From the NCBI RefSeq assembly GCF_029589435.1, contig NZ_JARRAG010000001.1, positions 1,788,808 to 1,852,807 on the forward strand: 64,000 nucleotides of DNA, given 5' to 3'. Shown here in pieces: positions 15,812-62,724 of this stretch (the stretch's first letter is position 1; each line of letters opens with the position of its first letter). The notes beneath the pieces were generated by a model. The model made no database searches, was not told where the DNA came from, and saw only the letters and a program-made list of their open reading frames with translations. This DNA comes from Paludisphaera mucosa (GTDB lineage Bacteria; Planctomycetota; Planctomycetia; Isosphaerales; Isosphaeraceae). Position numbers and translations under genes: made by a program.

Positions 15812-18800
15812 TCAGCGCTTCATCACGGTTTCGTCGTAGTTGAGCATCGCCTGGGCCACGACGGTCATCGCGGCGCAGGCGTGGGCGTCGAGCGCCAGGT
15901 CGCGCGGGGCGTCGCCGACGGCCAGCAGCTTGTCGGCGTCGGCCCGGCCGGAGGCGAACTCGTCGTACTGCTCGCGGTAGAGGGCTTCGAGGATCGACGT
16001 CTCGGCCTCGTCGGGCCGGCGGCCGGTCAGGACGCGGAAGACGAACGCGACGCGTTCGCGGGTCGTCGCGCCGCCCTCGCGAAGCGACCGCTCGGCCAGG
16101 GCGCGGGCGGCCTCGACGAACTGGGGGTCGTTGAGGAGCACGAGCGCCTGGAGCGGCGTCGCCGTGGGCTGGCGCTTGACGGCGCAGACCTCGCGGTTGG
16201 CGGCGTCGAAGGTCAGCATCGCGGGCGGGGGCGACGTCCGTTTCCAGTAGGTGTACAGGCTGCGGCGGTGGCTGCCCGGCCCCACGTCGCGGACGAACGG
16301 CAGGTTGGACTTCTCTTCCCACAGCCCGGCCGGCTGGAAGGGCTTGACCGCCGGGCCGCCCATCACGCCGACGAGCAGGCCGCCGGCCGCGAGGGCGTCG
16401 TCGCGGATCATCTCGGCCGACAGCCGATCGCGCGGTCCGCGCGCCAGCAGGACGTCGTCCGGGTCGCGAGCCTGCATCTCCGGCGAGGCGTCGGACGCTT
16501 GCCGGTAGGTCGCCGAGGTCACGATCGTCCGCAGGACGTGCTTGACGTTCCAGCCCGAATCGACGAGTTCCCGGGCCAGCCAGTCGAGGAGCGGCGGATG
16601 CGAGGGCAACTGGCCCTGGGCCCCGAAGTCCTCGGGGGTGGACACCAGGCCGCGGCCGAAGATCGACTGCCACCAGCGGTTGACCGTGACGCGGGCCGTC
16701 AGCGGATTCTTGGGATCGGTCGTCCAGCGGGCCAGGCCGAGGCGATTCCGGGGCAGGTCGGCGGAGAAGGGGAGGAGGCTCTTCGGCGTGTCGGGCGAGA
16801 CTCGCTCTCCAGGGGCGTCGTATGCGCCGCGGTTCAGGACGAAGGTCGGCCGGGGCTCGGCCATCTCCTTCATGGCCATGATCTCGACGATCGGGTCGGC
16901 GAGCCGGTCGCGCGCCGTGCGCGCCTCGATCAGGCTCGCGTACGCGGTCTTCGCCTCGGGGTCGACGTTCGCGAGGTAGTACGCGAAGAGCCGCTCGCGA
17001 TCCTCGGGATGCAGCGACGCCGGGGCGGCCGCCAGGCGGTCGTCGAGAGTCTTGCCGTCGTGGAGCTGGGCGGCCTCGATCGGGGCGAGCGAGCGGTCGA
17101 AGACTTGCAACTCGTCGACCTCGCCGTCCTTGAAGCCGCGGTCGCGGAAGCGCTGGCCGATGGTCAGCTCGTCCGAGCCGCCGCCGGCGATGGTCTTCGT
17201 CAGCTTGTCGCGGACGACGTCGACCGCCGCGGGCCGGCCGTCGACGAAGAGTCGCAGCCCCGCCGCCCGGCTCGACCCGTCGTACGTCATCACGACGTGA
17301 ACCCACTGGTTGACGGGCAAGGGGTCGTGGGCGGCGACGCCGATCGCGTTGCCGGGCCAGAAGTGGACGAGCGCGGCGGTGAGTCGGCCGTCCTCGATCA
17401 GGATCTGGTAGCCGCGGCTGCCGGCGTCGGTCCAGGCCGGCGAGCGCCTGAGCACGACGGCCCGCTCTTTGACGTCGGGAGTCTTCATCCAGAAGGCCAG
17501 CGAGAACGGCTGGAAGCGGTCGAAGTTGCCCAGCGGCAGGCTGACGCTGTTCTCGCCGTCGAACTTCAGGGCCTTGCCGACGCGACCCTCGACGACCTTC
17601 GGGCCCTCGATCGCCTTGCCGGGCTTGGCCGGGTCGACGCGGTTCGCCGTCGCGCCCCCCGCGTCGACGGCGTCGAGCGGGAAGTCGCCGATCCGCCCGC
17701 TCAAAACGGCCGGCTTCGGGTTGGCTCGATCGAGGGAATTCAGCCAGCTCTCGAAGGCCGGCCGTCGCGACTCGGCGAGCCCGGCCGCCTGCGCCTCGGC
17801 CGCCGTCACGCGGCTTGAGGCCTCCGCCAGCGCCTTCTCGCGTTCCACGTCGGTCAGCCAGAGGGTGGGGGTCGGTACGGCGTCGGTGAAGTGCGAGTAG
17901 AGGCCCGATTCGTCGATGCTGTTGAAGAAGCTGAACAGCGAGTAGAAGTCCTTCTGCGTGATCGGGTCGTACTTGTGCGAATGGCAGCGGGCGCATTCGA
18001 AGGTCAGGCCCAGGAACGCCGCGCTGTAGGTGATCGTGCGGTCGGCGACGTACTCGGTCCGCCACTCGGCCTCGATCGACCCGCCCTCGTTGGTCTGGCG
18101 GTGGTTGCGGTTGAAGGCCGTCGCCAGCACCATGTCGCGCGAGGGCTCGGGCATCAGGTCGCCGGCGAGCTGCCACTCGATGAACTGGTTGTACGGCAGG
18201 TTCGTGTTGAACGCGCGGACGACCCAGTCGCGCCAGGGCCACATGGCGCGGTAGACGTCGGCCTGGTAGCCGAAGGTGTCGGCGTAGCGGGCGACGTCGA
18301 GCCAGTCGACGGCCATGCGCTCGCCGAATCGCGGCGAGGCCAGCAGGCGATCGACCACCCGCGAATAGGCGCCGGGGCGTGAGTCGGCCAGGAAGGCGTC
18401 GATCTCGTCGAGCGTCGGGGGCAGACCCGTCAGGTCGAACGTCACGCGGCGGATCAGGCGCTCGCGCGGGGCCTCGGGCGAGGGGGCGAGGCCTTCGGAC
18501 TCCAGGCGGGCCAGGACGAGGCGGTCGATGGGGTTCTCGGGCCAGTCCTTGCGGGCGACGTCTGGGAGCGTGGGCCGCTCGGGGGGGATGAAGGCCCAGT
18601 GATCCTTCCACTCGGCCCCTTGCTCGACCCAGCGACGGAGCAAGTCGGTTTCGTGCGGGGTCAGTTCGCGTCCCAGCGACTTGGGAGGCATCCGCTCGCC
18701 CTCGTCGTCGCTGGTGATCCGCGCGACCAGCTCGCTGGCGTCGACGTCGCCGGGCACGACCGCGCGCAGGCCCGTCTTGGTCTCGCCGAAGGCACCTTCC

Positions 18801-19021
18801 TTGGTGTCCAGCCGCAGGCCGGCCTTGCGGTTCTTCGGGTCGGGCCCGTGGCAGTGGAAGCACTTGTCCGAGAGGACCGCGCGGACCTGGCGGTTGAAGT
18901 CGACCCGCTCGTCGGCCCCCGGCTTGGGGGGCGGATCGTCGGCCCTGGCGGCGGCCCACGCGGAGAGGATCAAGGAGCACGTCGCCGTCCATCGGATCCG
19001 GGGACAACCTCGTCCAGCCAT
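15812..19021 (-). CDS. PSD1-type planctomycete cytochrome c with LamG-like insert
   Basis: An exported c-type cytochrome of 1069 aa with a signal peptide (LILSAWAAARADD). The PSCyt1 heme motif C-F-H-C-H is at about residues 54-58. The DUF1549 region contains C-A-R-C-H-S-H-K-Y-D-P near residue 343. A concanavalin/LamG-like domain at about 480-650 shows GKALKFDGENSV, FSLAFWMKT and WVHVVMTYDGSS. The DUF1553 region (NPLTARVTVNRWWQSIFG onward) ends the protein. The LamG-like domain, absent in this form from the first copy, suggests binding to glycan or another extracellular polymer. It is the first gene of an operon with the DUF1501 gene, and a hairpin separates it from the DUF1559 gene upstream. 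Confidence 0.93.
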   Translation of the reverse strand: MAGRGCPRIRWTATCSLILSAWAAARADDPPPKPGADERVDFNRQVRAVLSDKCFHCHGPDPKNRKAGLRLDTKEGAFGETKTGLRAVVPGDVDASELVARITSDDEGERMPPKSLGRELTPHETDLLRRWVEQGAEWKDHWAFIPPERPTLPDVARKDWPENPIDRLVLARLESEGLAPSPEAPRERLIRRVTFDLTGLPPTLDEIDAFLADSRPGAYSRVVDRLLASPRFGERMAVDWLDVARYADTFGYQADVYRAMWPWRDWVVRAFNTNLPYNQFIEWQLAGDLMPEPSRDMVLATAFNRNHRQTNEGGSIEAEWRTEYVADRTITYSAAFLGLTFECARCHSHKYDPITQKDFYSLFSFFNSIDESGLYSHFTDAVPTPTLWLTDVEREKALAEASSRVTAAEAQAAGLAESRRPAFESWLNSLDRANPKPAVLSGRIGDFPLDAVDAGGATANRVDPAKPGKAIEGPKVVEGRVGKALKFDGENSVSLPLGNFDRFQPFSLAFWMKTPDVKERAVVLRRSPAWTDAGSRGYQILIEDGRLTAALVHFWPGNAIGVAAHDPLPVNQWVHVVMTYDGSSRAAGLRLFVDGRPAAVDVVRDKLTKTIAGGGSDELTIGQRFRDRGFKDGEVDELQVFDRSLAPIEAAQLHDGKTLDDRLAAAPASLHPEDRERLFAYYLANVDPEAKTAYASLIEARTARDRLADPIVEIMAMKEMAEPRPTFVLNRGAYDAPGERVSPDTPKSLLPFSADLPRNRLGLARWTTDPKNPLTARVTVNRWWQSIFGRGLVSTPEDFGAQGQLPSHPPLLDWLARELVDSGWNVKHVLRTIVTSATYRQASDASPEMQARDPDDVLLARGPRDRLSAEMIRDDALAAGGLLVGVMGGPAVKPFQPAGLWEEKSNLPFVRDVGPGSHRRSLYTYWKRTSPPPAMLTFDAANREVCAVKRQPTATPLQALVLLNDPQFVEAARALAERSLREGGATTRERVAFVFRVLTGRRPDEAETSILEALYREQYDEFASGRADADKLLAVGDAPRDLALDAHACAAMTVVAQAMLNYDETVMKR

Positions 19022-50192: not shown

Positions 50193-51623
50193 TCAGGGCA
50201 GGGCGGCCGTCGCGGCGATGAGCGCCGCCCTGGCTTTGACCCGGGAGGCAGGGTCGACGGTGCAGGCCTCCCAGTCGATCGCCGGCACCGCGACCGGCCG
50301 CTCGACGAGGCGGCGGTCGCGGGCCAGTTCCGTGAAGACCCGCCCCCAGGCCTTCATCGCCCCGTCCGCGCGCAGAAGGCCGATGCGCTGGGTCACGTCG
50401 CCCGCCTCGGGCTGGTCGTAGAGGCCCCAGTGGATCCATCCGACGGCGCCGACGTTCGCCGACAGATCCACGAGATTTCGGCTCCAGCGGGCCTGGTCAT
50501 CCTCGCTCGCGGGCGGGTGCGTCTCACTCCCGAATTGGAGCGGACCGCCGCCGTACCAGCCGTACTCCGCCACGACGACGGGCTTCCCCTTCGCCCCCCG
50601 TACCACCTCGCCGACGACGCCCGCCAGGTAGGCCAGGTTGGTCTTCTCGGCTTCCGGCCGATAGGTGTAGAAACCTCCTTCGATCGGATAGAAGTGGACT
50701 TCCAGGAAGTCGATCAGGGGCGCGAGCCGTTCGGGCCGGAAACCGGCGTAGCCCTCGGGCCCGCCGAGATTGAGGGGCACGCTGAACTGGAGCAGGCCCA
50801 CGGTGACGAGCGCCTCGGGATCGGCCGCCTTGATCGCGGCGGCCTGGCGTCGCGTCCAGGTCACGGCGACGTCCTCACGATACCTCTGGTAGTCCCGCAG
50901 CCGGCGCGACGTCACGGGCGCATCGCGCGGCGGGATCGCTTCGGCTTCGAACGGCGAGACGCCGCCCGCCTCGTCGCCCCAGGCCGCGGCCAGCCCCTGC
51001 GGGTTCTTGTACGTCGATTCCAGCCATCGGCTCCAGCCGGCCTTCATCGCGGGGGTGTCCCAGGCGACCACGGGTTCGTTGAGCAGGTCGTAGGCGAAGA
51101 TCACCCCGCGGCCGCGGTAACGTCCAGCGAGTTCCGTCCAGAACGCCTCCATCGTGGCGAGGAATCCGTCGTCGGCGATCCGGTCGACCTTCGCCCAATC
51201 GGGCACGCCTTCCCAGTGGTCCGGGCCGGTCGGATGCACGCGGATCCCCGCCTCCTCGGCGATCGCCAGGAACCGATCCAGCTTCGCGAGGGCTTCGGGG
51301 TCGATCCGGCCGCGCTCGGGCAGGAACGAGCCCAGCGTCAGGAAAACGCGGACCACGTTCACGCCCATGGCCTTCATCCGCATGAAGTCCGCGCGGGTCG
51401 CGTCGGGGTCGAACGTCTTCCAGACCTGAGGCGCCCAACCGGTTTCGGGTCGGAAATACGTCAGGCCGAACGGCGTGAAAGGCTCGCCCCCCGACGTGAC
51501 GAACGCCGACTTGCCGACGGCGACCTGGACTCTCGCCATCTCCCCGCCCGGGGCGGTCGCCGCAGCACACGCAAGCGTCGCAATCAGGGCCGCCCGACGC
51601 AGTCCAAGCCGTCTCGAAGACAT
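50193..51623 (-). CDS. Exported GH5-like glycoside hydrolase
   Basis: A 476-aa secreted TIM-barrel hydrolase. The signal is RAALIATLACAAATAPGGE. Clan GH-A features: an N-terminal GLTYFRPETGWAP, VVRVFLTLGSF, a general acid/base Glu in YDLLNEPV (about 184) and a likely nucleophile Glu in VVVAEYGWY (about 352). HFYPIEGGFY follows strand 6. It resembles cellulase/mannanase-like or GH5-type enzymes with unassigned substrate. GGGAG lies upstream of the ATG. It fits the carbohydrate-degrading character of this part of the window. Confidence 0.88.
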   Translation of the reverse strand: MSSRRLGLRRAALIATLACAAATAPGGEMARVQVAVGKSAFVTSGGEPFTPFGLTYFRPETGWAPQVWKTFDPDATRADFMRMKAMGVNVVRVFLTLGSFLPERGRIDPEALAKLDRFLAIAEEAGIRVHPTGPDHWEGVPDWAKVDRIADDGFLATMEAFWTELAGRYRGRGVIFAYDLLNEPVVAWDTPAMKAGWSRWLESTYKNPQGLAAAWGDEAGGVSPFEAEAIPPRDAPVTSRRLRDYQRYREDVAVTWTRRQAAAIKAADPEALVTVGLLQFSVPLNLGGPEGYAGFRPERLAPLIDFLEVHFYPIEGGFYTYRPEAEKTNLAYLAGVVGEVVRGAKGKPVVVAEYGWYGGGPLQFGSETHPPASEDDQARWSRNLVDLSANVGAVGWIHWGLYDQPEAGDVTQRIGLLRADGAMKAWGRVFTELARDRRLVERPVAVPAIDWEACTVDPASRVKARAALIAATAALP

Positions 51624-51915: not shown

Positions 51916-53172
51916 GTGACGACTCATGCAGCCGCAGTCCCTTTGGTCTCCCTCATCTTCGGCGTCACCTATCTGGCCCTGGCGATCGGCCGGGTGCCCG
52001 GCCTGAGGATCGACCGGGCCGGGATCGCCCTGGTCGGGGCCGTCGCCATGCTCGCCTGCAGCGTCCTCACGATGCGGGAGGCGGCCGGGGCCGTCGATTA
52101 CGAGACCATCGTCCTCCTCTTCGGCATGATGGTCGTCGTGGCCTTTCTGCGACTCTCCGGGTTCTTCGCGCTCGCCACAGAGGGCGTCGCCCTTCGCTTC
52201 TCCCACCCGCTGGCGTTGCTGGCGGTGACGATCGGCCTGTCGGGCGTCCTGTCGGCGTTCCTCGTCAACGACGTCGTCTGCGTCGCCCTCACGCCTCTGA
52301 CGCTCGACCTCTGCCGCAGGCTGAAGCGCCCGCCCATCCCTTACTTGATCGGGCTCGCGACCGCCTCGAACATCGGCTCGGTGGCGACGATCACGGGCAA
52401 CCCGCAGAACATCATCATCGGCTCGCTCTCGCAGATCTCCTACATCCGTTTCTCCTCCCGCCTGGCCCCCGTGGCGGCCGTCGGCCTGGCGTTGAACTTC
52501 GCCGTGGTGGCCCTCGTGTATCGCAAGTCGCTGGGCCAGGCGCTCGAGTCGCCTCCGCAGCCCGTGACCGGGAATGACGTGAAGCCGCGCGTCCACGGGC
52601 CGCTCCTGATCAAGAGCGCCGTGGTGACTTTGGCCGCCATCGCCCTCTTCTTCGCCGGCCAGCCGATCGCCGTGGTGGCGCTGGTCGCCGCGGCGATCTT
52701 GATGCTCGACCGCGTCCGGCCGTCCAAGGTCTATGAGTCGGTCGACTGGCCGTTGCTCGTCATGTTCGCGGGCCTGTTCGTCGTGGTGCACGCCTTCGAG
52801 CGGGACGTCGTCCGGACGTGGGGGATCGACAGGTGGCGTGCGATCCTCGACTCCCCGGTGGTCATGGTGAGCGGGCTGTCGGTTTTGCTCTCCAACCTGG
52901 TCTCGAACGTACCGGCGGTCCTGCTCTTCAAGCCCTTGATGGCGGCGATGTCCGACGGGGCCCGCGAGCAGGCCTGGCTCGCCCTGGCCATGTCGAGCAC
53001 GCTGGCCGGGAACCTGACGCTGCTGGGCTCGGTGGCGAACCTGATCGTCGTGGAGAACGCGCGGCGGGCGGGGACCGAACTCGGATTCCTCGAATACCTC
53101 AAGGTCGGCGTGCCGCTGACGATCGCGACGACCGTCGTCGGCGTCGCCTGGCTCGCCCTCACACGTTACTGA
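51916..53172 (+). CDS. ArsB/SLC13-type (ion transporter superfamily) permease
   Basis: A 418-aa membrane protein with 11-12 helices. The start is GTG with GGAGGT 11 nt upstream. Signature features of the ArsB/NhaD/DASS ion transporter superfamily are the duplicated halves with SNIGSVATITGNPQNIIIG and SSTLAGNLTLLGSVANLIV, the substrate/cation-binding hairpins. SNVPAVLLFKPLM is also characteristic. Substrates in the superfamily include arsenite, Na+/H+ and dicarboxylates or sulfate; I cannot choose among them. No arsenic regulator or arsenate reductase gene is nearby. Confidence 0.9.
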   Translation: MTTHAAAVPLVSLIFGVTYLALAIGRVPGLRIDRAGIALVGAVAMLACSVLTMREAAGAVDYETIVLLFGMMVVVAFLRLSGFFALATEGVALRFSHPLALLAVTIGLSGVLSAFLVNDVVCVALTPLTLDLCRRLKRPPIPYLIGLATASNIGSVATITGNPQNIIIGSLSQISYIRFSSRLAPVAAVGLALNFAVVALVYRKSLGQALESPPQPVTGNDVKPRVHGPLLIKSAVVTLAAIALFFAGQPIAVVALVAAAILMLDRVRPSKVYESVDWPLLVMFAGLFVVVHAFERDVVRTWGIDRWRAILDSPVVMVSGLSVLLSNLVSNVPAVLLFKPLMAAMSDGAREQAWLALAMSSTLAGNLTLLGSVANLIVVENARRAGTELGFLEYLKVGVPLTIATTVVGVAWLALTRY

Positions 53173-53286: not shown

Positions 53287-56200
53287 TCAGAGTCCGTTGA
53301 AGGACGACCCGACCTTGAGCTTGTTGCGGCGCGAGAGCAGCAGTCGATCCCAGGCGAGGGACTCTTCGAGCACCTCGCTGCGGTGGGATGTCAGCTCGGA
53401 CAGGATCGATTGCAGGGCCGCGTCGACGATCCTGCCGTTCGTGTTCGCGCCCCGGGCGGCGGGCGTCGCGAAGTAGGAGCCGATCGAGCGGCCGCTCGGC
53501 GGCGGCGGCGTGGCCTGGGCGACCAGCGGGACGACGCCGGCCGCGGCGGGCGTCGTCGAGCCGGTCGCGACCGTGCTGGTCAGGGAGGACGGAGTGCTCG
53601 CCCCGGTGGAGACCGATAGCGTGTATTCGCCGGGGCCGCCGGCGGCGCTCAGGACCTCGATGTAGTAGGTACCCTCTTCCAGCCCCGAGAGCGAAAGCGA
53701 GGCGTTGCGGCCGTCGGCCGAGTCGTCGTCCTCGGCCACCACGTTGCCTTCGGCGTCGAGGATCCGGATCGCGGGATCCAGGTCGTTCACGAATTCGCCG
53801 CTTCCGCCGCCCGGCGTGCCGGTGACGACGTCGAGCGTGCCGTCGGACCCGACCTGCACGGAGTACACGTCGCTGTCGTCGAGCGTGAGGATGAGCGTCC
53901 GCGGATAGATGTCCCCGGAGAAGGCGAAGAGGGCCTCGGGGGCGCCGTTGAAATCGATGGACGACAGGGCGGCACCGACGGTGAACACCCCGCCGCCGGC
54001 GCCGAGGATCGCGGCCAGGGCGTCGGGGGTCAGGTCGAAGGACAGGAAGGCGAAATCCTCCAAGAAGAAGACGTCGCGCGAGGCGTACAGGACGCCCGAG
54101 CCCAGGTCGTCGAAGATGTCGGTGCGATCCGCGCCGCCCGCCGTCACCTCGTCCGCCGACGTCGTCACGTCGTAGAAGCCGATGGTCTCGAAGAAGTCGT
54201 TCGACGCGTAGAACGGGTTGAAGATCTCGAGGCGGGCGCTGGCGATCCGGGCCCCCGCGGGCAGCGAGGAGAGGTCGAAGCTGAAGAAGCTCCGATACTC
54301 GGCGTCGTCCGGGATGTATCCCGTGAGGTAGTTCGTGTTATCCGACTGGTGGAATCCGTAGTCCGTGTACCAGCCCGAATCCGAGGCCTCGATCGCGATC
54401 GTGCCGCCGCTCGTCACGGCCCCCAGCACCGTGGTCGTCCCGCTCGACAGGTCGAGCGGCTGGGCGGTCTCGATCGAGTTGTTTGACTCGACGTCGAACA
54501 CGCCGCCCCGCGTGACCACGAGGCTGTAGTCGACCAGATTGCCGCCGGTGACGCGGACGTAGTAGATCCCGGCCGCGCCTCCGGCGAACTCCAGGGCGTC
54601 GTTGACGTTGGTGTCGACCGACGAGCCGGCGACGATCACGTTCCCGAAGGCGTCGAGCAGCTCGATGTCGACGTCGCCGCCGGACAGCGAGGTCGCGACC
54701 ACCGACGCCCCCTGGCCCGCGCCCAGGGTGAAGCTGTAGACGTCGGGGACCACGGGCGGGGGGTTGAGCGGGTGGTTTTCCACCGAGACCTGGAGCAGGT
54801 ACTCGGCCCCCGGCTCGACCGGGCTGCCGAAGGGATAGCTTCCCACCCCGAGCAGGTAGACGCCCGGGGCGTCGAAGATCCAGGTGATGAGGGAATCCAG
54901 GCTCGTGCCGCTTCCCGGGTCGAGATTGCTGTCGTCGCTAGTGGCGAGGAGATTGCCCTCGATATCGAAAAGGTACAGGTAGGAGTCGAGTCCCGACGAG
55001 AAGTCGATGTCGAAGATGCCCTCGGAGCCGGCCGTGTCGACGGTGAACGAGTAGAAATCGAAGGTGCCGTCGCCGGTCCCCGCGACCGACAGGTGCGCCG
55101 CGATGGTGGAATCGAAGATGAACGGATCGAAGTCCAGCGTCCACGGCCCGCCGTCGAGGTCCTGGGTGAACTCGTCGTTGGGCTCGATTTCCGGGATCAC
55201 AGACCCCGCGGTCGGGGTCTGGCCGACGACCGCGCCTCGGTCGGCTCCTCCCGGGAGCGCGATGAACGTGGTGTCGAGCGACTGCGCCGAGGACGGGTCG
55301 TCGTTCGAAGGTCCGCCGTAGGATTCGTCTTCGACGGCGGCGTTGACGAGGAGATCGAAGAAGTAAAGGCCGGGCGAGCCCGTGCCGCCGATCCGGATCG
55401 TGTACACACCGGCGGCGACGGCGGGGACCGTTTGCAGGATGACAAACGCGCCCGCGCCCGTCGCCGTGGCCAGGCTGACGCCATCGGGCCCGATCAGCTC
55501 CACGGATCCCATCAGGCTCGAGGGGTCGAGCAGCACCGTTATGGTCTGCCCGGCGTCGAGCTGGATCGTCCAGTCGTCGGTGTCGTCGTCGGAGCTGATC
55601 AACCCTTGCGAGGAGAACGGAGTCTCGTAGATGAGCCCGCCGAGCGGGGCGACCGACACGAGCGGGGTGGGCACCGAGCGGGTCGCCGCGTCGATCTGGA
55701 AGCTGACGTAGAAATCTCCTCCCTCCACCCCGTCGCCGGAGACGTTGGGCGGGATCGGGAAGGCCAGGGGCTCGCCGTCCAGCTCGAGCCCCACCAGGTC
55801 CTGGAAGCCCACCTCGTCGCTGAAGAGCACGAGGGTGTAGAGATCTTCCGGCAGGAAGCTGAAGGTGGCCGTGAGGACCGTCCCGGTGGAGTCGAAGCTG
55901 AAGCTGATCGGGAGGTAGGTCCCCGAGAACGCGCTGAACAGCACGACGTCCGAGGAATCGATGAGCGACGTGTTGATCGCCTCGGAGAACGCGATGACGA
56001 CCGTGAAGTCGCCTTCCGGCAGGGTGTCGCCCTGCTGGATGGACGAGGAGACCACTCGGGGAGCCGTATTATCGATGGTGAAGGTGCTGGAGAACGACTG
56101 GATCGCGGTGTTCTGCACGTCCCGGATCGAACCCGAGCCGATCGTGATGGTGTGCCGGCCCTCGGTGGCCAGGAAGGCGCCCGACGGGGCCGAGGTCAGC

Positions 56201-59200
56201 TCGATGATCCCGAATCGCCCGGTGCTGGTCACCAGGTCGCCCCAGGCGCCGTAGTTCGAGCCGGGATCCCAGTTGATGACGGTCGCGTCCTCGTCGCCGT
56301 TGAAGTCGTTCGGTTCCCCGAACGCCCAGTTGGTGAAAGAGACGGCCTCGCCGCTGGACCAGACGAACGTCCCCTCCTGGGCGATGTCGTTGAGGCCGAT
56401 CCAGTACTGGTCGTTCTTCGAGGCTCCCGAGAAGAAGGAACGCTTCAAGAAGTTCTGCTCGGCCTGGCTGCCGACGGTCACCAGGTGGCCGCCCAGCGCC
56501 GCGGCCTGGGCCTCGGCGTCGAGCCAGTCGGCCGCGGCCGAGGTCAGGACGTAGTAGTGGCCGTTGCCGCCGTCCTCGACCTTCCACTGGAACACGAACG
56601 AGACGTCGAAGGTCGCCGTGTCGCCGTCGACGAGCGTGACGCCGGAGGCGGCGACGCCGTCGACCTTGAGGTCGCCGGGCTGGAGGGTCGTCGCCAGCAC
56701 CTGGTCGTTGAAGTCGATCGTGATCTGCGACGGCGGGTTGGCGACGGTCGAGCGGGAATCGGGGTCGACGTCGCTGACGGAGAACGACGTCCGGGCCCCC
56801 GTAGCCCCTGCCACCGAGAGGATGTACTCGCCGCCGACGGCATCCTCCGAGTCCGTCGAGGCGAGGATCTGGATGACGTAGAGCCCGCCCCGGCCTGTGG
56901 GGACAACGTACGACAGGACGGCGTTCCGACCGTCGGGCGAGCCGTCGTCATTGCTTGCGACGAGGTTCCCGGCCGGGTCGTAGAGCCGGATGATCGGGTC
57001 GAGGACGTTGACGAATTCGCCCGAGCCGTCGGCCGGCGTGCGGGTCTCGATCCGGATGGTGGCGCCGGGCCGGAACGTGGCGCGGTAGAAGTCGCCCCCC
57101 CCGGTTTCGCTGGCGCCGCCGGCGTCGTCGCCCCCCAGCGCGCCCACGGTGAAGTCCAGGGGCACGAAACGGATCGGTGAGCCCGAACGCGAGAACACGG
57201 AGAACCCGCCCGGAGGGTTGATCGTGCCCAGGTAGATCTCGCCGCCGATCACCGCCACGCCGCCGATGTCGCCGGCGTTGGGGAAGAAGGAGTTCGTGAT
57301 CTCGCCCGTCACGGGGTCGATCTCGAGCACGCGACCGCTGAACCCTTCGGTCGCGATCAGGGCGTCCGGGCCGGAGATGCCGGCCAGGCCGCCGGCCAGG
57401 TTGACGTTGAAATTCAGGACCCGCACGACCTGGTCCGTGACGGGGTCGAAGACCAGGATCTGGTCGGTGTCCGAATCGGAGATGTAGATGAGGCCGCCCA
57501 GGGCCGCGATGCCGTCGAGGAAGTCCAAGCCCGTGGGCAGCGCGGTGACGTCGATCACGGCGCCCGTATCAGGGTCGAGCTCGTAGAGGTCCGAGCTGAC
57601 GAACGAATTCAGGAAGAACACGCTCGCGCCGTCGAACGCCAGGCCGTCCGCCTGGGAGCTGGCGCCCTGAGGCGCGGGGATCCGGCGGATCTCCTCGCCG
57701 GTCTCGGGGTCGAGTTCGAGGATCGAGCCCAGGGCGTTCGACGAGGTCGCGAAGAGGCGGCCGCCGCCGGCGGGTGACGTGTAGCCCAGGACCCAGGTCT
57801 TGCCGTCCACCACCGTGGCGTCGAGGTTCGCGGCCGACGCGAAGTCGGTGTTGAGGCCCGTGTCGAAGGCGGCGTTGCGGGTGGCCACCAGGCTGTACTC
57901 GCCGCTCCCCCCCGAGACCTCGATGGTGTAGGTCCCGGCCGTCGAGGCGACGAAGTTCCCGATGTACGAGGCGATGCCCGCCGCGGCGTTGGTGCTGCCG
58001 ATGGCGACGATCACGCCGTTCGGATCGCGCAGGACCATCCCGGGGGCCACGCCGCCCAGCGACGTCAGGGCGAGCGAGACGCTCTGGCCGGCTTGCAGGT
58101 CGAGCCGGTAATAGTCGTCGTCCGAGGCGAACTCGAACTGGGTCACAAGGCCGTAGCCCGCGTCGACGAAGCCGTCCGCGTCGTTCACGTCGCCGAGGCC
58201 GACGATGCGCGTGGTGGGGGCGAATTCATTGAGCGTCGTCGAGCTGAAGTAGAGGGGCACCGTGCCCGAGGAGCTGAAGACCTGGAAATCCAGGATGAGG
58301 TCGCCGAGGGCCGGGTCGTACACGAACGCGTCGTCGACGTCGATCAGGATGTCGAACGGGCTGGGCGATCCGGTCGCCGAACTCGACAGCGTCAGGAGGC
58401 CGTCGTACACGGTGACCACGCCCGACCCGAGGTTGGCGTCGAAGCTCGACGAGGCGTCGAAAACGCCGTGGGCCGCGTAGCCGACGCGGATCTTGACGTC
58501 GAGCTGGAGGTTCGAGAACCCACCCTGCCAGTCGGGGCGTCGGAACTTCACCTGGTCCAGCAGGCCGCCGGCGTTGAACTCGCCGGCGTCGTAGATCTGC
58601 TGGTAGTGCATGCTCGTCCAGCCGAAGGGCTGGAGCACGAAGGGGAGGGCGTTGCCCCAGCCGCCGTCGAACTCCTCGAATGACTGCGGCACCGTGGAAG
58701 CCCCGCCGCTCGCCGTGCCGATCACGGCGGCCCGCTCGGCCCCGGTCCCCGTCGGGCCGCCGCTCAGGCTGATGAACGCCCCCGACAGGTCCTGCGCCGT
58801 GGCGGCCGTGTCGTTGGACGGCCCGCCGAAGACCTGGGCGTCGACGTCGGCGTTGAGGATGATCCGCACGACGTAGTCGCCGGTCGTCCCGTCGGCCCCC
58901 TGGACCGTGATCGTGAACGGGACCGGGGCCGCGCCGGGGCCGGCCAGCGGGCCCGGGACGCGGTAGGCCCGGATGATCGCCGACTGGCCGGCGGCCGAGG
59001 CCGCGCCCGAGCCGACCTGGCCTCCCGGCCCGACGAGCGAGACGGCGCCCTTCAACTCCGAGCCGTCGGCCGGCGTCAGGATGACGACGATCGTCTGGCC
59101 CGAGTCGACGGTGATGGAGAAGCTGTCCGAGTCGCCGGCCGTGCCGATCCGCCCGCCCTGCTCGTTGTCGTAGATCAGCGATCCGGGAGGGGCCTGGGCG

Positions 59201-61314
59201 GTGAGCGGGACGGGGAAGGCGACGTCGCCGAAGTCCAGCTCGTACGTGCCGACGAACGCCGCATTGCCGTTGCCGAAGACGTCCGTCACCGCGCCGGCCC
59301 GCAGCGTGGCCGTCAGCACGGCCTCGGCCGTCAGGCCGGACAGGAAGAACTCGATCGAATCCGCGTCGATGAAGGCGAAGCCCACGACCCCGCCCTGGCT
59401 CAGGATCAGGTCTGAGGTCTGGACGCTGCCCGGGGCGACGGCCTCGTTGAAGTTGAGGGTCAGGCTGGCGACGGGCAGGGCCAGCACCGAGCCGACGGGC
59501 GGCGAAGTCGAATCGACGACGAGCTGCACCGCGTCGTAGGAGAAAGTGGCGTGATAGGAAGCGACCCCGTCGCCGTCCTCCAGGCGCGTGAACGCGTCGG
59601 CCGCCACGTCCAGGCTGTTCGGGCCCTGGACGACCGGGCTGGCCAGGAAGGTGAAGGTCAGGGTGTCGGCGTCGGTGAATGCGACGGAGTCGGCGGGCAG
59701 GCCGTTGATCGTCAGGTCCGAGGCGTCGACGGTCGACGGGTCGTAGGGCGAGGACAGGTTGAGGACGAACGAGGCGGGCGGCGTGCCGATGAACAGGGAT
59801 CCGTTGGCGGGGTCGCTGCTCACGACGGTCAGGCCGGCGTCGAACTTGCCCGTCGAGAGGCCGAACGAAATGCTGTTGAGGGTGTCCTCGACGCCCCGGA
59901 ACCCCTCGTTGGGATTGAACAGGTCGTCTCCGAAGTCGACGTCGACGTCGTCGCCGCCGCCGGCCTCGTAGATCTCGTTGGGGCCGACGCCCACGGTGTT
60001 GGGCAGGTTGCCTCCCTGGTCCATGATGTTGGGCGAGGGGTCGAACTGGTCGGTGTGCCAGTTGGCGAAGAAGTGGCCGGCCTCGTGGGCGACGATGTTG
60101 CCCACGCCCACGCCGACCAGCCCCACGATCGAGAGGCCCAGCGAGGGGTCGAAGAACTGGTTCAGCGAGTTCGGGTCCGAAGCCGGGGCGCTGAGGAGGT
60201 CCAGGAGCGTGACGGCCGAGTCCTCCGTCTCGAAGTTGCCGACGTCGATCGACTGCGCGATGCCGATCGTCGAGATGCCCAGCTCGTCGATCGTGCCGCC
60301 GACGATCACCCGGCTGACGTTGGGCTGGCCGAACGGATCGGGGTCGTCGCGGCTGTTGCGGACGTCGATGCCGTAATGGCCGGGGATTCCGTCGGAATCG
60401 AAGTCGCCGTTGTTGCCGATGTTGGCGAAGTTCTCCGAGACCGAGGCCACGATGGCGTCGATCACGGCGTCCTCGTCGCCGGGTCCCAGGCCCCAGCCGG
60501 GCAGGAACGCCGAGAGCGGCGACAGCGTGCGGATGCCCGACCCCCCGAAGATCGAGGCGTCGATCGTGCCGCCGTCGAAGTCGAGGTAGAGGATCTGCTT
60601 CGTCCCGATCGGCTGCGATTCCAGCGCCGGGCGGAAGGTTCGGAGGTTGAGGGTGTAACCGCCCGAGCCGGCGTCGACCGCGATGGTGTAGGTCCCGGGC
60701 GTGTCGACGACCCAGGACAGGGCCGCGTTGCCGTTGCGCAGCAGCGGCGACGAATCGGGATAGATGAACGTCGCGTTCTGCGAGGAGCCCATCAGCAGCG
60801 AGCCGTCGGGGGCGCGGAAGCTCAGGTCCGTGGCGCCGCCGTCGACGTTCGCGCCGAAGATGTCGCCGGCCTGGAGGTCGACCGAGAAGAAGTCCTGGTC
60901 GCCGGAGGTCAGCGTCCCCGTGACGTCGACCGCCGAATCCTGGCCCGGCCCGAAGCCCAAAGGCATCGGGTTGGCCAGGGCGATCGTGTCGTTGGGCTCG
61001 GCCTCGTTGAAGCTCGAGAACGTGGTGATCGGTCCGCCCGACGACCGCACGGGCGTCGAGCCGGGAGCGTTCGGCCCCACGGCCGCGCCGAGCGCCGCGG
61101 TCATCTGCCGGGCCACTTCCGAGATGGTCAGGCCCTGGGGGAGATACGCGGTGGCGAGCGACGGGAACTGCTGGATGGCGGCCATGGTCTGGGCCAGGCC
61201 GTCGGTCAGCATGACGCGGCTCTCAAGATGCTCGAGCGCGGCCCGCCGGAAATTCGGCTTGCGAGAGGCCGGGACGGTGCGATTGCGTCGAGGGGGACGG
61301 GAAGCGGATCTCAT
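53287..61314 (-). CDS. Giant multidomain surface protein with metallopeptidase-like and C-type lectin domains
   Basis: A roughly 2675-aa extracellular protein. The ATG at 61314 is chosen because GAGGAG sits 7 nt upstream and the planctomycete LEPR-XLL-like N-terminus follows (FRRAALEHLESRVMLT). Order: PPC-like domain (about 110-210); metallopeptidase-like region with ILYLDFDGG and zinc-site HEAGHFFANWH (about 405-418) and NIMDQGG as a possible Met-turn; Big/SwmB-like Ig repeats (about 490-690); further PPC-like repeats; a propeller-like segment (about 1180-1370, ILELDPETGEEIRRI type repeats); a C-type lectin domain (about 1570-1705, HLVTVGSQAEQNFL, WIGLND, FGEPND); Ig and PPC repeats; a CBM96/DNRLRE-like domain (about 2308-2458); a final PPC-like repeat and a short basic C-terminal segment. 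The function is probably adhesion with proteolysis. Confidence 0.9.
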   Translation of the reverse strand: MRSASRPPRRNRTVPASRKPNFRRAALEHLESRVMLTDGLAQTMAAIQQFPSLATAYLPQGLTISEVARQMTAALGAAVGPNAPGSTPVRSSGGPITTFSSFNEAEPNDTIALANPMPLGFGPGQDSAVDVTGTLTSGDQDFFSVDLQAGDIFGANVDGGATDLSFRAPDGSLLMGSSQNATFIYPDSSPLLRNGNAALSWVVDTPGTYTIAVDAGSGGYTLNLRTFRPALESQPIGTKQILYLDFDGGTIDASIFGGSGIRTLSPLSAFLPGWGLGPGDEDAVIDAIVASVSENFANIGNNGDFDSDGIPGHYGIDVRNSRDDPDPFGQPNVSRVIVGGTIDELGISTIGIAQSIDVGNFETEDSAVTLLDLLSAPASDPNSLNQFFDPSLGLSIVGLVGVGVGNIVAHEAGHFFANWHTDQFDPSPNIMDQGGNLPNTVGVGPNEIYEAGGGDDVDVDFGDDLFNPNEGFRGVEDTLNSISFGLSTGKFDAGLTVVSSDPANGSLFIGTPPASFVLNLSSPYDPSTVDASDLTINGLPADSVAFTDADTLTFTFLASPVVQGPNSLDVAADAFTRLEDGDGVASYHATFSYDAVQLVVDSTSPPVGSVLALPVASLTLNFNEAVAPGSVQTSDLILSQGGVVGFAFIDADSIEFFLSGLTAEAVLTATLRAGAVTDVFGNGNAAFVGTYELDFGDVAFPVPLTAQAPPGSLIYDNEQGGRIGTAGDSDSFSITVDSGQTIVVILTPADGSELKGAVSLVGPGGQVGSGAASAAGQSAIIRAYRVPGPLAGPGAAPVPFTITVQGADGTTGDYVVRIILNADVDAQVFGGPSNDTAATAQDLSGAFISLSGGPTGTGAERAAVIGTASGGASTVPQSFEEFDGGWGNALPFVLQPFGWTSMHYQQIYDAGEFNAGGLLDQVKFRRPDWQGGFSNLQLDVKIRVGYAAHGVFDASSSFDANLGSGVVTVYDGLLTLSSSATGSPSPFDILIDVDDAFVYDPALGDLILDFQVFSSSGTVPLYFSSTTLNEFAPTTRIVGLGDVNDADGFVDAGYGLVTQFEFASDDDYYRLDLQAGQSVSLALTSLGGVAPGMVLRDPNGVIVAIGSTNAAAGIASYIGNFVASTAGTYTIEVSGGSGEYSLVATRNAAFDTGLNTDFASAANLDATVVDGKTWVLGYTSPAGGGRLFATSSNALGSILELDPETGEEIRRIPAPQGASSQADGLAFDGASVFFLNSFVSSDLYELDPDTGAVIDVTALPTGLDFLDGIAALGGLIYISDSDTDQILVFDPVTDQVVRVLNFNVNLAGGLAGISGPDALIATEGFSGRVLEIDPVTGEITNSFFPNAGDIGGVAVIGGEIYLGTINPPGGFSVFSRSGSPIRFVPLDFTVGALGGDDAGGASETGGGDFYRATFRPGATIRIETRTPADGSGEFVNVLDPIIRLYDPAGNLVASNDDGSPDGRNAVLSYVVPTGRGGLYVIQILASTDSEDAVGGEYILSVAGATGARTSFSVSDVDPDSRSTVANPPSQITIDFNDQVLATTLQPGDLKVDGVAASGVTLVDGDTATFDVSFVFQWKVEDGGNGHYYVLTSAAADWLDAEAQAAALGGHLVTVGSQAEQNFLKRSFFSGASKNDQYWIGLNDIAQEGTFVWSSGEAVSFTNWAFGEPNDFNGDEDATVINWDPGSNYGAWGDLVTSTGRFGIIELTSAPSGAFLATEGRHTITIGSGSIRDVQNTAIQSFSSTFTIDNTAPRVVSSSIQQGDTLPEGDFTVVIAFSEAINTSLIDSSDVVLFSAFSGTYLPISFSFDSTGTVLTATFSFLPEDLYTLVLFSDEVGFQDLVGLELDGEPLAFPIPPNVSGDGVEGGDFYVSFQIDAATRSVPTPLVSVAPLGGLIYETPFSSQGLISSDDDTDDWTIQLDAGQTITVLLDPSSLMGSVELIGPDGVSLATATGAGAFVILQTVPAVAAGVYTIRIGGTGSPGLYFFDLLVNAAVEDESYGGPSNDDPSSAQSLDTTFIALPGGADRGAVVGQTPTAGSVIPEIEPNDEFTQDLDGGPWTLDFDPFIFDSTIAAHLSVAGTGDGTFDFYSFTVDTAGSEGIFDIDFSSGLDSYLYLFDIEGNLLATSDDSNLDPGSGTSLDSLITWIFDAPGVYLLGVGSYPFGSPVEPGAEYLLQVSVENHPLNPPPVVPDVYSFTLGAGQGASVVATSLSGGDVDIELLDAFGNVIVAGSSVDTNVNDALEFAGGAAGIYYVRVTGGNLVDYSLVVTRGGVFDVESNNSIETAQPLDLSSGTTTVLGAVTSGGTIAIEASDSGWYTDYGFHQSDNTNYLTGYIPDDAEYRSFFSFDLSSLPAGARIASARLEIFNPFYASNDFFETIGFYDVTTSADEVTAGGADRTDIFDDLGSGVLYASRDVFFLEDFAFLSFDLTPDALAAILGAGGGVFTVGAALSSIDFNGAPEALFAFSGDIYPRTLILTLDDSDVYSVQVGSDGTLDVVTGTPGGGSGEFVNDLDPAIRILDAEGNVVAEDDDSADGRNASLSLSGLEEGTYYIEVLSAAGGPGEYTLSVSTGASTPSSLTSTVATGSTTPAAAGVVPLVAQATPPPPSGRSIGSYFATPAARGANTNGRIVDAALQSILSELTSHRSEVLEESLAWDRLLLSRRNKLKVGSSFNGL

Positions 61315-62031
61315 GTTGCGGCTCCTCGGCGATGGTGATGCATACGAGATGTGGCGGTCTTCGGCCGACCGTCGGCTGCGCCCATCGCCCCCCTTTCGAA
61401 GGCCCTGAGCGACGTCGCAATGACGGCTGCCGCGCGGAAATTCGGATCGCAAAGCGGCGCGTTCGAGCGGATTCGGCGACTAAACAGTTGATCGGGAGAG
61501 ATGGACGATCGGAACGAAGCGACCGAGAACATGGGGGCGGCGTTTCGATCCACCCCGAATGGAGTTTTCACGTGTCGATCCCCGCTCACCCCTTGAGCAC
61601 GCTTGAGGACGCGCCGAGGATCCGGAGAGCAGGCGTGACGACCGGGCGGTGGAGGAAGTCCGCGTTTCTTGCGGTCGATGCACGAGATCCCCGTCGTCCC
61701 GCGTCGGCCGATTTCGACTCGATTCTGGACGCCTTCAGAGTTGACATCTCGGCCGCGGCGGCAGGCGGACGGCGGGTCGCGACGTCGGGCCCCGATCGAG
61801 AGAAACCCGGCGGCCTCTCGAAACGACCCCCGGCGATCCACGCGTGCCGCGCCGGGGCCTGGCGTGCCCCTCGAGGCGGTCGACTCGTCCGCTGCGACAT
61901 CAACGTCGTCTCGTTGAATCAGTCCGCCGGCGACCGAGCGTGGAGATCGAATCCGTCCAGAATTGGCTCAAGCGTCACGGGAGAGCGTGCCGCCCCGATC
62001 GAGCATCTCGGCCTTACGAGACCGCTCGGAG
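61315..62031. other. Intergenic region upstream of the giant surface-protein gene
   Basis: Open frames on both strands are Arg/Pro/Ser-rich shadows without motifs or convincing ribosome sites. The minus-strand promoter of the giant gene should lie here. I could not pick a clear -35/-10 pair. Confidence 0.5.
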
Positions 62032-62724
62032 CTACGGACGACGAGCAAGGCTCTCGACGCCCCGGTTGGCGGCCTCGAAGAGGCGGCGGCGAAGCAGGCC
62101 TCCCGCGGCGATCAGTGCGGACGCGCCGCAGAGGACCAGGCTCGAGGGCTCGGGCACTGCGCTGACGGAGACCTTGTCGATCCCCAGGGCGCTGTCAAAG
62201 AACGAGTCGTTGTCCACCGCGTTCGCGACACCGAATTCCAGCGTGTAAGATCCGCCCGACGCGATCAGGAAAGAGACCGACACCCACCCCGTCGTGCCCT
62301 GAGGTCCGACGGTCGCTTCATCCGCGCTGAAGAGGGTGGCGACCAGGTTCTGCGACCCGTCGTAGAGTCGGGCGTACCCGTAGTCGTTGTTCGCGTCGTC
62401 CCCGGTGTCGAAGAAGACGTCGAACGAAAGCGTTTCGCCGGCGCTCGCCTGGAAGGTCTGCGACAGGGTCGTCGCCACGTCCACTCCGAGGCCCGTCCTG
62501 AGATAGCCCAGGTAGTCGAGGTCGGTCGGGAAGAAGGTCCCGCCCGTGCCCAGCGAAGAGACCGAGAACTCCGCGGTCGCCAGCGAGGGATCGTTGGCCG
62601 ACCATCCCGCGAGATCCCCCGTCTCGAAGGAACCGTTGATGACCCCAGCATCGACGCGAGACGCGGTCGAGGCCGTCAGCCCGAGCGCGACGATCAGCAA
62701 GACTGGATAGGAACCGAATCTCAT
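62032..62724 (-). CDS. PEP-CTERM sorting-domain protein (second)
   Basis: A 230-aa secreted protein. The signal is SYPVLLIVALGLTASTASRVDA. A jelly-roll-like beta domain follows (VINGSFETGDLAGWS, TLSQTFQASAGETLSFDVFFDTGD, VSFLIASGGSYTLEFGVAN), similar to carbohydrate-binding or NF-domain proteins that carry PEP-CTERM tails. The C-terminus has SAVPEPSSLVLCG, a hydrophobic helix and the RRRLFEAANR basic cluster. It should be handled by exosortase-type sorting machinery, which is not in this window. An AT-rich region lies just upstream. Confidence 0.9.
   Translation of the reverse strand: MRFGSYPVLLIVALGLTASTASRVDAGVINGSFETGDLAGWSANDPSLATAEFSVSSLGTGGTFFPTDLDYLGYLRTGLGVDVATTLSQTFQASAGETLSFDVFFDTGDDANNDYGYARLYDGSQNLVATLFSADEATVGPQGTTGWVSVSFLIASGGSYTLEFGVANAVDNDSFFDSALGIDKVSVSAVPEPSSLVLCGASALIAAGGLLRRRLFEAANRGVESLARRP

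Follow-up and report, generated by a model that had tools for sequence, protein, structure and literature searches.

The stretch of DNA analyzed here (the window) comprises 64,000 nucleotides of the Paludisphaera mucosa genome (contig NZ_JARRAG010000001.1, forward-strand positions 1,788,808 to 1,852,807). A single open frame on its reverse strand at 53287..61314 runs from ATG to TGA and encodes one chain of 2675 aa, exactly as the original prediction had placed it; all features of this gene given below lie on the same strand. The gene has a GC3 of 0.94, and direct reading found a Shine-Dalgarno-like GAGGAG (61322..61327) with 7 nt between it and the ATG. The encoded protein lacks cysteine altogether and has 13 lysines, 75 arginines and 334 acidic residues. 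A search of its own genome revealed no second copy of the gene, the sole other match being a pre-peptidase C-terminal (PPC) domain piece at 37%. The adjacent upstream gene (62032-62724, reverse strand) encodes a PEP-CTERM-type protein of 230 aa that matches TIGR02595 at its cut-off (16 bits), and the neighbours at 51916-53172 (forward strand) and 50193-51623 (reverse strand) encode a CitMHS/ArsB-type transporter and a GH5/GH42-like glycosidase, respectively. A planctomycete protein with the domain order PSCyt1-PSCyt2-LamG-PSD1, and with a laminin-G-type domain mid-chain, is encoded at 15812-19021 (reverse strand). Scanning the window against Rfam and for tRNAs yielded nothing.

Pfam analysis of the 2675-aa protein revealed six PPC stretches (E 1.2e-28) and three Big_5 stretches (E 2.3e-18), bearing out the many PPC/Ig-like modules that had been proposed. 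Near the N-terminus, a regex search located LESRVML (aa 30-36; 61207..61227), which we take to resemble the motif named LEPR-XLL; the LEPR-XLL-like N-terminus of the original prediction thus stands as a motif and found no NCBIfam model match at E ≤ 1. It is followed by an uninterrupted PPC domain (aa 103-228; 60631..61008), recognized from its AF2 model and from VIA matches to PPC-type collagenase domains, and by a peptidase module (aa 232-497; 59824..60621) described below. The C-terminal tail (aa 2576-2675 plus the stop; 53287..53589) has no anchor recognised by Pfam or NCBIfam, and no anchor or secretion model matched. A T9SS sorting tail was considered and rejected, as the Por_Secre_tail matches fall inside PPC domains and outside the C-terminal tail.

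The remainder of the chain consists of two diverged copies of one unit, Big_5, Big_5, PPC-like, PPC, PPC, delimited by self-alignment and HMM parse as copy A (aa 497-1507; 56794..59826) and copy B (aa 1508-2575; 53590..56793). Self-alignment of residues 600-877 with 1747-2042 scored 287, of 1067-1165 with 2191-2288 scored 127, and of 1408-1509 with 2482-2574 scored 175, against maxima of 73, 64 and 61, respectively, in 100 shuffles each. In copy A, Pfam and the HMM parse placed Big_5 domains A1 (aa 497-592; 59539..59826) and A2 (aa 600-692; 59239..59517), and self-alignment and the parse placed the PPC-like domain A3 (aa 698-828; 58831..59223). The corresponding domains of copy B are Big_5 B2 (aa 1747-1879; 55678..56076) and PPC-like B3 (aa 1880-1997; 55324..55677), both from self-alignment and HMM parse, preceded by Big_5 B1, which is divided into an N part (about aa 1513-1577; 56584..56778; model positions 1-60) and a C part (about aa 1708-1746; 56077..56193; model positions 63-93). 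The core of the scaffold unit was detected in 38 of 397 genomes of the class, several of them with two to four copies per frame, and in six of 294 genomes across the phylum; one of these six is the own genome, and a single one of the rest matched strongly. Among 23 scaffold-protein frames, 17 carry the pattern [LF]E.R.[LMVI][LM] within the first 500 residues (regex).

The last two PPC domains of both copies are split between their first strand and their second, which bears D-x-Y-x-F. By HMM parse, host A4 consists of an N half at aa 829-872 (58699..58830) and a C half at aa 1063-1147 (57874..58128), A5 of aa 1148-1182 (57769..57873) and 1404-1507 (56794..57105), B4 of aa 1998-2037 (55204..55323) and 2187-2271 (54502..54756), and B5 of aa 2272-2303 (54406..54501) and 2478-2575 (53590..53883). 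The protein therefore holds five inserted domains, four in PPC strand-1/strand-2 turns (slot 1 in A4 and B4, slot 2 in A5 and B5) and one, the lectin, within Big_5 B1; no other Big_5 was split by the rule that model positions 1-60 and 63-93 flank an insert. In the AF2 model of the intact PPC domain at aa 103-228, strands 129-135 and 141-147 are linked by a five-residue turn exactly at the slot site.

The slots were surveyed in 40 fetched stretches plus the window. Of 81 candidates, 56 were kept and 25 dropped, retention depending on a strong N half (slot 1), a gap of at most 600 and the removal of duplicates. Slot 1 (n=32) was empty in eight cases, contained a short segment in two and an insert of more than 60 aa in 22, while slot 2 (n=24) was empty in six, never short and filled by more than 60 aa in 18; as the scanned proteins were chosen as matches, these ratios are not class-wide rates. 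The 40 inserts measure 118-493 aa. In empty copies the N half joins the C half directly, with -4 to +6 residues between them, and with HMMs of intact hosts the excised hosts outscored either piece alone (in bits) in 22 of 22 cases for slot 1 and 18 of 18 for slot 2. Two relatives (L118, in genome G265, frame of 9522 aa; L117, in G226, 3939 aa) have three or four scaffold copies, and all four slot-1 sites of L117 are empty.

An initial junction count (22 at 39-40 and 18 at 27-30) was partly circular, the half-models having been cut at the window protein's own boundaries. With HMMs built from empty copies, 19 of the 22 inserts of slot 1 had their splits at positions 36-44 on both sides, and 15 of the 18 inserts of slot 2 had theirs at 20-34. 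The exceptions include slot 1 of L127, where the insert is long and apparently enters the host at a later point, near model position 61, and L113 and L115, each with one C part starting early. In an unanchored scan with the empty-host model, which allowed the split anywhere from 18 to 105, slot 1 gave 22 splits, all of them within positions 32-42 (of 131), and slot 2 gave 10, all within positions 25-34 (of 126). When inserts were placed artificially at random sites, the split was detected in 40 of 40 cases, mostly no more than a few residues from its true place, so the method does not impose the insertion site. Together, the unanchored scan and this control led us to reject the splits as an artefact of the choice of HMM boundaries. 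It is also very improbable that the protein is a plain tandem array, with its extra domains consecutive, the "N halves" mere linkers and no slots at all: the Pfam PPC model in the window protein does begin at the D-x-Y-x-F strand, which makes a linear reading natural, and at least one insert type (cluster 0, below) exists as a free protein, but against this stand the direct closure of the insert-free copies, the scores of every excised host and the five-residue turn of the intact domain.

The five inserts of the window protein differ from one another. Slot 1 of copy A holds a domain with no Pfam match (aa 873-1062; 58129..58698), delimited by the slot survey and assigned by BLAST to cluster 0, and slot 1 of copy B holds a whole PPC domain nested in the PPC host (aa 2038-2186; 54757..55203; slot survey). 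Slot 2 of copy A is filled by the predicted propeller-like repeats (aa 1183-1403; 57106..57768): four D/E-P-x-T repeats at 1202, 1247, 1290 and 1333, spaced 43-45 aa, are consistent with a propeller, and the matches to propeller families are weak, below the curated cut-offs. L115 carries its one relative among the 40 inserts, likewise in slot 2. In copy B, slot 2 holds a DNRLRE/CBM96-like candidate (aa 2304-2477; 53884..54405; cluster 3), named from weak, sub-cut-off matches. The insert of Big_5 B1 (aa 1583-1707; 56194..56568) is the C-type lectin domain that had been anticipated, confirmed by Pfam (Lectin_C at 1596-1685, E 1.8e-10, 41.9 bits against a gathering score of 22.6) and by phmmer matches to mannose-receptor-type domains in the PDB. 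It is cysteine-free; direct reading revealed EPN at aa 1667-1669 (56308..56316) and, at 1691, WGD in the place of WND, EPN and WND presumably being the calcium-site motifs of mannose-type C-type lectin domains, in which WND is usual. Its best genomic match (54%) is a frame of 492 aa in a member of the same genus (L078, genome G004). That frame is a free C-type lectin with both EPN and WND, and it carries two VPEP-type (PEP-CTERM-like) tails. The head, the scaffold and the lectin differ in their nearest kin, as would be expected of a mosaic.

Across the relatives, the 40 inserts fall into 16 BLAST clusters, eight of them singletons. Clusters 0, 1 (NIDO) and 3 (DNRLRE-like) each occur in both slots, cluster 0 three times in slot 1 and three times in slot 2. 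In six genomes, cluster 0 also stands alone, in frames of 286-390 aa, and one more match lies in an 841-aa frame. Pfam identified NIDO in six of the 40 inserts and ThuA in two, and single cases of a subtilase, FG-GAP, an InhA-type MAM domain and others. Slot 2 of L116 (~aa 2059-2540) apparently contains a subtilase-type serine protease domain, assigned by insert length and text. The extra domains listed in the original prediction are nested inside hosts and not arranged linearly, and the combination in one chain, which it had called unusual, resembles a single draw from a mix-and-match repertoire. The duplicated scaffold, the nesting and the finding that relatives exchange inserts between the two slots go beyond that prediction.

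The peptidase module contains the predicted HEAGHFFANWH (aa 410-420; 60055..60087) followed by NIMDQGG (aa 429-435; 60010..60030), which supplies Met431 at the Met-turn position, 11 residues after H420. Both were examined in an alignment of 36 homologues (A2) that left out near-duplicates, two fragments (L040 and L058) and the remote L062. H410, E411, H414, H420 and D432 are invariant in 36 of 36, and further invariant positions include D245, R335, N360, D455 and D456. The three His that serve as zinc ligands stand at the spacing HExxHxxxxxH, which also holds the catalytic Glu, so the third ligand, whose spacing had been proposed as a check, fits the metzincin pattern; a chance match of HEAGH was rejected, as H, E, H and H are kept in all 36 homologues. 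The Gly of HExxHxxGxxH (position 417) is present in 33 of 36 family members and replaced by Ala in the other three, namely L023, L054 and the window protein, so that the window member departs from a rule its family follows. Segments peculiar to the family are DFDG, NSRD, R-x-I/V-x-GG, GxGPDxIxGTxDD and EGFxGxED.

Searched against the PDB, the 36-sequence profile matched metzincins at the top, over the active-site helix only (stromelysin-3, E 0.03; fragilysin, E 0.04); among the best 60 matches, three were Spo0B on another stretch and the remainder were titled metzincins or metalloproteases. An earlier profile from 11 sequences had found nothing in the PDB. In Pfam, 30 of the 36 A2 members gave a weak Reprolysin_2 match (best 7.8e-5), and individual family members matched the Reprolysin, Matrixin, M57 and M43 models weakly. 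The window member did not score above the curated cut-off for the named peptidase families M10, M12, M43 and M57 (Reprolysin_2, 11.9 bits against a cut-off of 27; in another Pfam search, none at E ≤ 0.1), and the module had no NCBIfam match. Judged by these searches, it is an unclassified family that lies below every Pfam and NCBIfam cut-off.

A first AF2 model of aa 98-498 gave a fold search dominated by the PPC domain. The peptidase module modelled alone (pLDDT 67, pTM 0.74, the C-terminal 48 residues at low confidence) places HEAGH in a helix at 165-185 and has the element order strand, long helix, strands, active-site helix, which is the order expected of zincins. Foldseek against the PDB returned no match at E ≤ 0.001. 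By VIA, 49 of the best 50 matches were metzincin or archaemetzincin-type by title, the other being 4l6t (ECX); the best was 2x7m (Z 7.7, rmsd 4.6, 143 aligned) and the best 50 spanned Z 5.9-7.7, values below 8 that by themselves might reflect a common arrangement. As Z was nearly tied among archaemetzincin, adamalysin and matrixin matches, no named family was chosen. A HEAGH segment outside a metallopeptidase fold had been named as grounds for dropping the predicted zinc-peptidase-like site, and neither the AF2 model nor the VIA ranking refuted that site in this way. Since motif, profile and ranking converge on one clan, the module is very likely a metzincin.

It is unlikely, in our estimate, that the module is a pseudoenzyme or acts only in self-processing, leaving the protein a structural adhesin. 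The change of the zinc-motif Gly to Ala would fit such a role, as would the frequent replacement of the Met-turn residue within the family (Met 21, Ile 11, Ser 3 and Ala 1, hence non-Met in 15 of 36) and one 248-aa fragment outside A2 (L058) that reads HEAGR, with Arg replacing the second His. Against it, the three His and the Glu are kept in all 36 homologues from four phyla, and 17 more invariant residues are compatible with a working site.

Of 297 genomes of the class, 33, the own genome among them, hold a homologue of aa 103-490 that spans the peptidase, and in 17 more the match is confined to the PPC part. Within the own family, the module occurs in one of 45 genomes, that of the window, and in none of the other 44. 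The named relatives belong to Planctomycetota, Actinomycetota, an Acidobacteria MAG and a Hydrogenedentota MAG, of which the MAG labels are possibly wrong; a search of viral contigs revealed no relative. The nearest relatives of the peptidase are L053 (75%) and L023 (66%), and in the tree the window member pairs with L053 (support 81/85) within a poorly resolved fan that also contains the other phyla. Its position in the tree and its absence from the rest of the family would fit a lateral gain, without proving it.

The protein is probably a secreted or surface-displayed giant with a head of N-terminal PPC and metzincin peptidase, followed by two slotted, rod-like scaffold copies that hold putative binding inserts at their sides. 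The chain would exit each host PPC domain, and here also one Big_5, at one turn, fold a whole foreign domain, return and complete the host. The five inserts (one of unknown type, a propeller, the C-type lectin, a PPC and a DNRLRE/CBM96-like domain) would then be held sideways with their ends together and the far face free. By analogy, the lectin, the propeller and the other inserts may serve as contact points that hold glycan or protein targets, and the metzincin may cut protein nearby; secretion, surface display, binding and proteolysis are all features that we infer for the giant protein. The adhesin of the original prediction, which would bind glycan or prey and be anchored in the envelope, is likewise a putative role. 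More broadly, we lean slightly towards the view that the PPC strand-1/strand-2 turn, within a repeated five-domain scaffold, is a standard port of planctomycete giants, with domains of unrelated folds, proteases and propellers among them, swapped in and out of two such ports, combined here with a head from an unclassified, cross-phylum metzincin family.

The strongest competitor of this display model, still doubtful in our judgement, is that the chain is no adhesin and works as a degradative machine that unites glycan binding and a protease for food gathering. Planctomycetes degrade complex polysaccharide, and in some relatives a slot is occupied by an enzyme or a domain resembling one (subtilase, ThuA), both of which count in its favour; the inserts, however, are mostly small beta-rich binding-type domains (NIDO in 6 of 40) or of unknown type, which counts against it.

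The closest known parallel to such a display lies in the RTX adhesins AhLap, FrhA and MpIBP. According to the available parts of the relevant papers, their ligand-binding domains project from split Ig-like domains with the insert ends together, nested splitting is known (vWFA), and the display is backed by structures and binding data (PMC12077191, PMC10865825). As far as those parts describe them, the RTX adhesins share with the window protein a very long chain and a domain inserted in a split host, insertion in the window protein and its relatives being judged by sequence model. In contrast to the RTX adhesins, the window protein has PPC hosts (plus one Big_5), a five-domain unit that is repeated and offers two slots each time, a fused metzincin and a planctomycete source, and no RTX family was among its Pfam or NCBIfam matches. 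With the named metzincins (M10, M12, M43, archaemetzincin and kin), the module shares HExxHxxxxxH, a Met-turn-like segment and its fold ranking, and differs in falling below their curated cut-offs and in its own conserved segments. Fibrillar adhesins share with the proposed layout of the window protein a plan of stalk plus adhesive domain; they differ from it in that stalk and adhesive domains form separate classes, and PPC and Big_5 are absent from the searchable portion of the account (PMC8286594).

Giant genes of more than 5 kb with surface-type domains are common among planctomycetes, according to the accessible text of two accounts, which gives size counts and a few InterPro domains and describes no slotted scaffold (PMC5352709, PMC5177795). 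A literature search that included few subscription papers found nothing joining split domains, adhesins and planctomycetes, which is no proof of novelty, and, within the same scope, no domain insertion in PPC domains. The literature searched also contained no inserted or nested domain alongside PPC, among the matches listed, and nothing joining planctomycetes, giant proteins and C-type lectin; five papers in it mention both metzincins and planctomycetes. We file the protein as a case of split-domain display, a known principle, here in a version with PPC domains as hosts, units that repeat and inserts that can be exchanged.

Planctomycete giant genes have been counted in the literature, but the logic behind them has for the most part yet to be read. 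If a repeated scaffold carries a fixed slot, the sequence by itself would give a rule for locating the business end of such giant proteins, much as split domains provided one for the RTX adhesins, and the slots make the binding of each insert testable. The PPC turn would be a natural site, already in wide use, at which a small beta domain accepts insertions, and it may be usable in protein engineering of harmless display systems; the head adds a metzincin family without an entry in the libraries searched. If this reading is true, planctomycete giant genes would diversify like a plug board, through two PPC ports.
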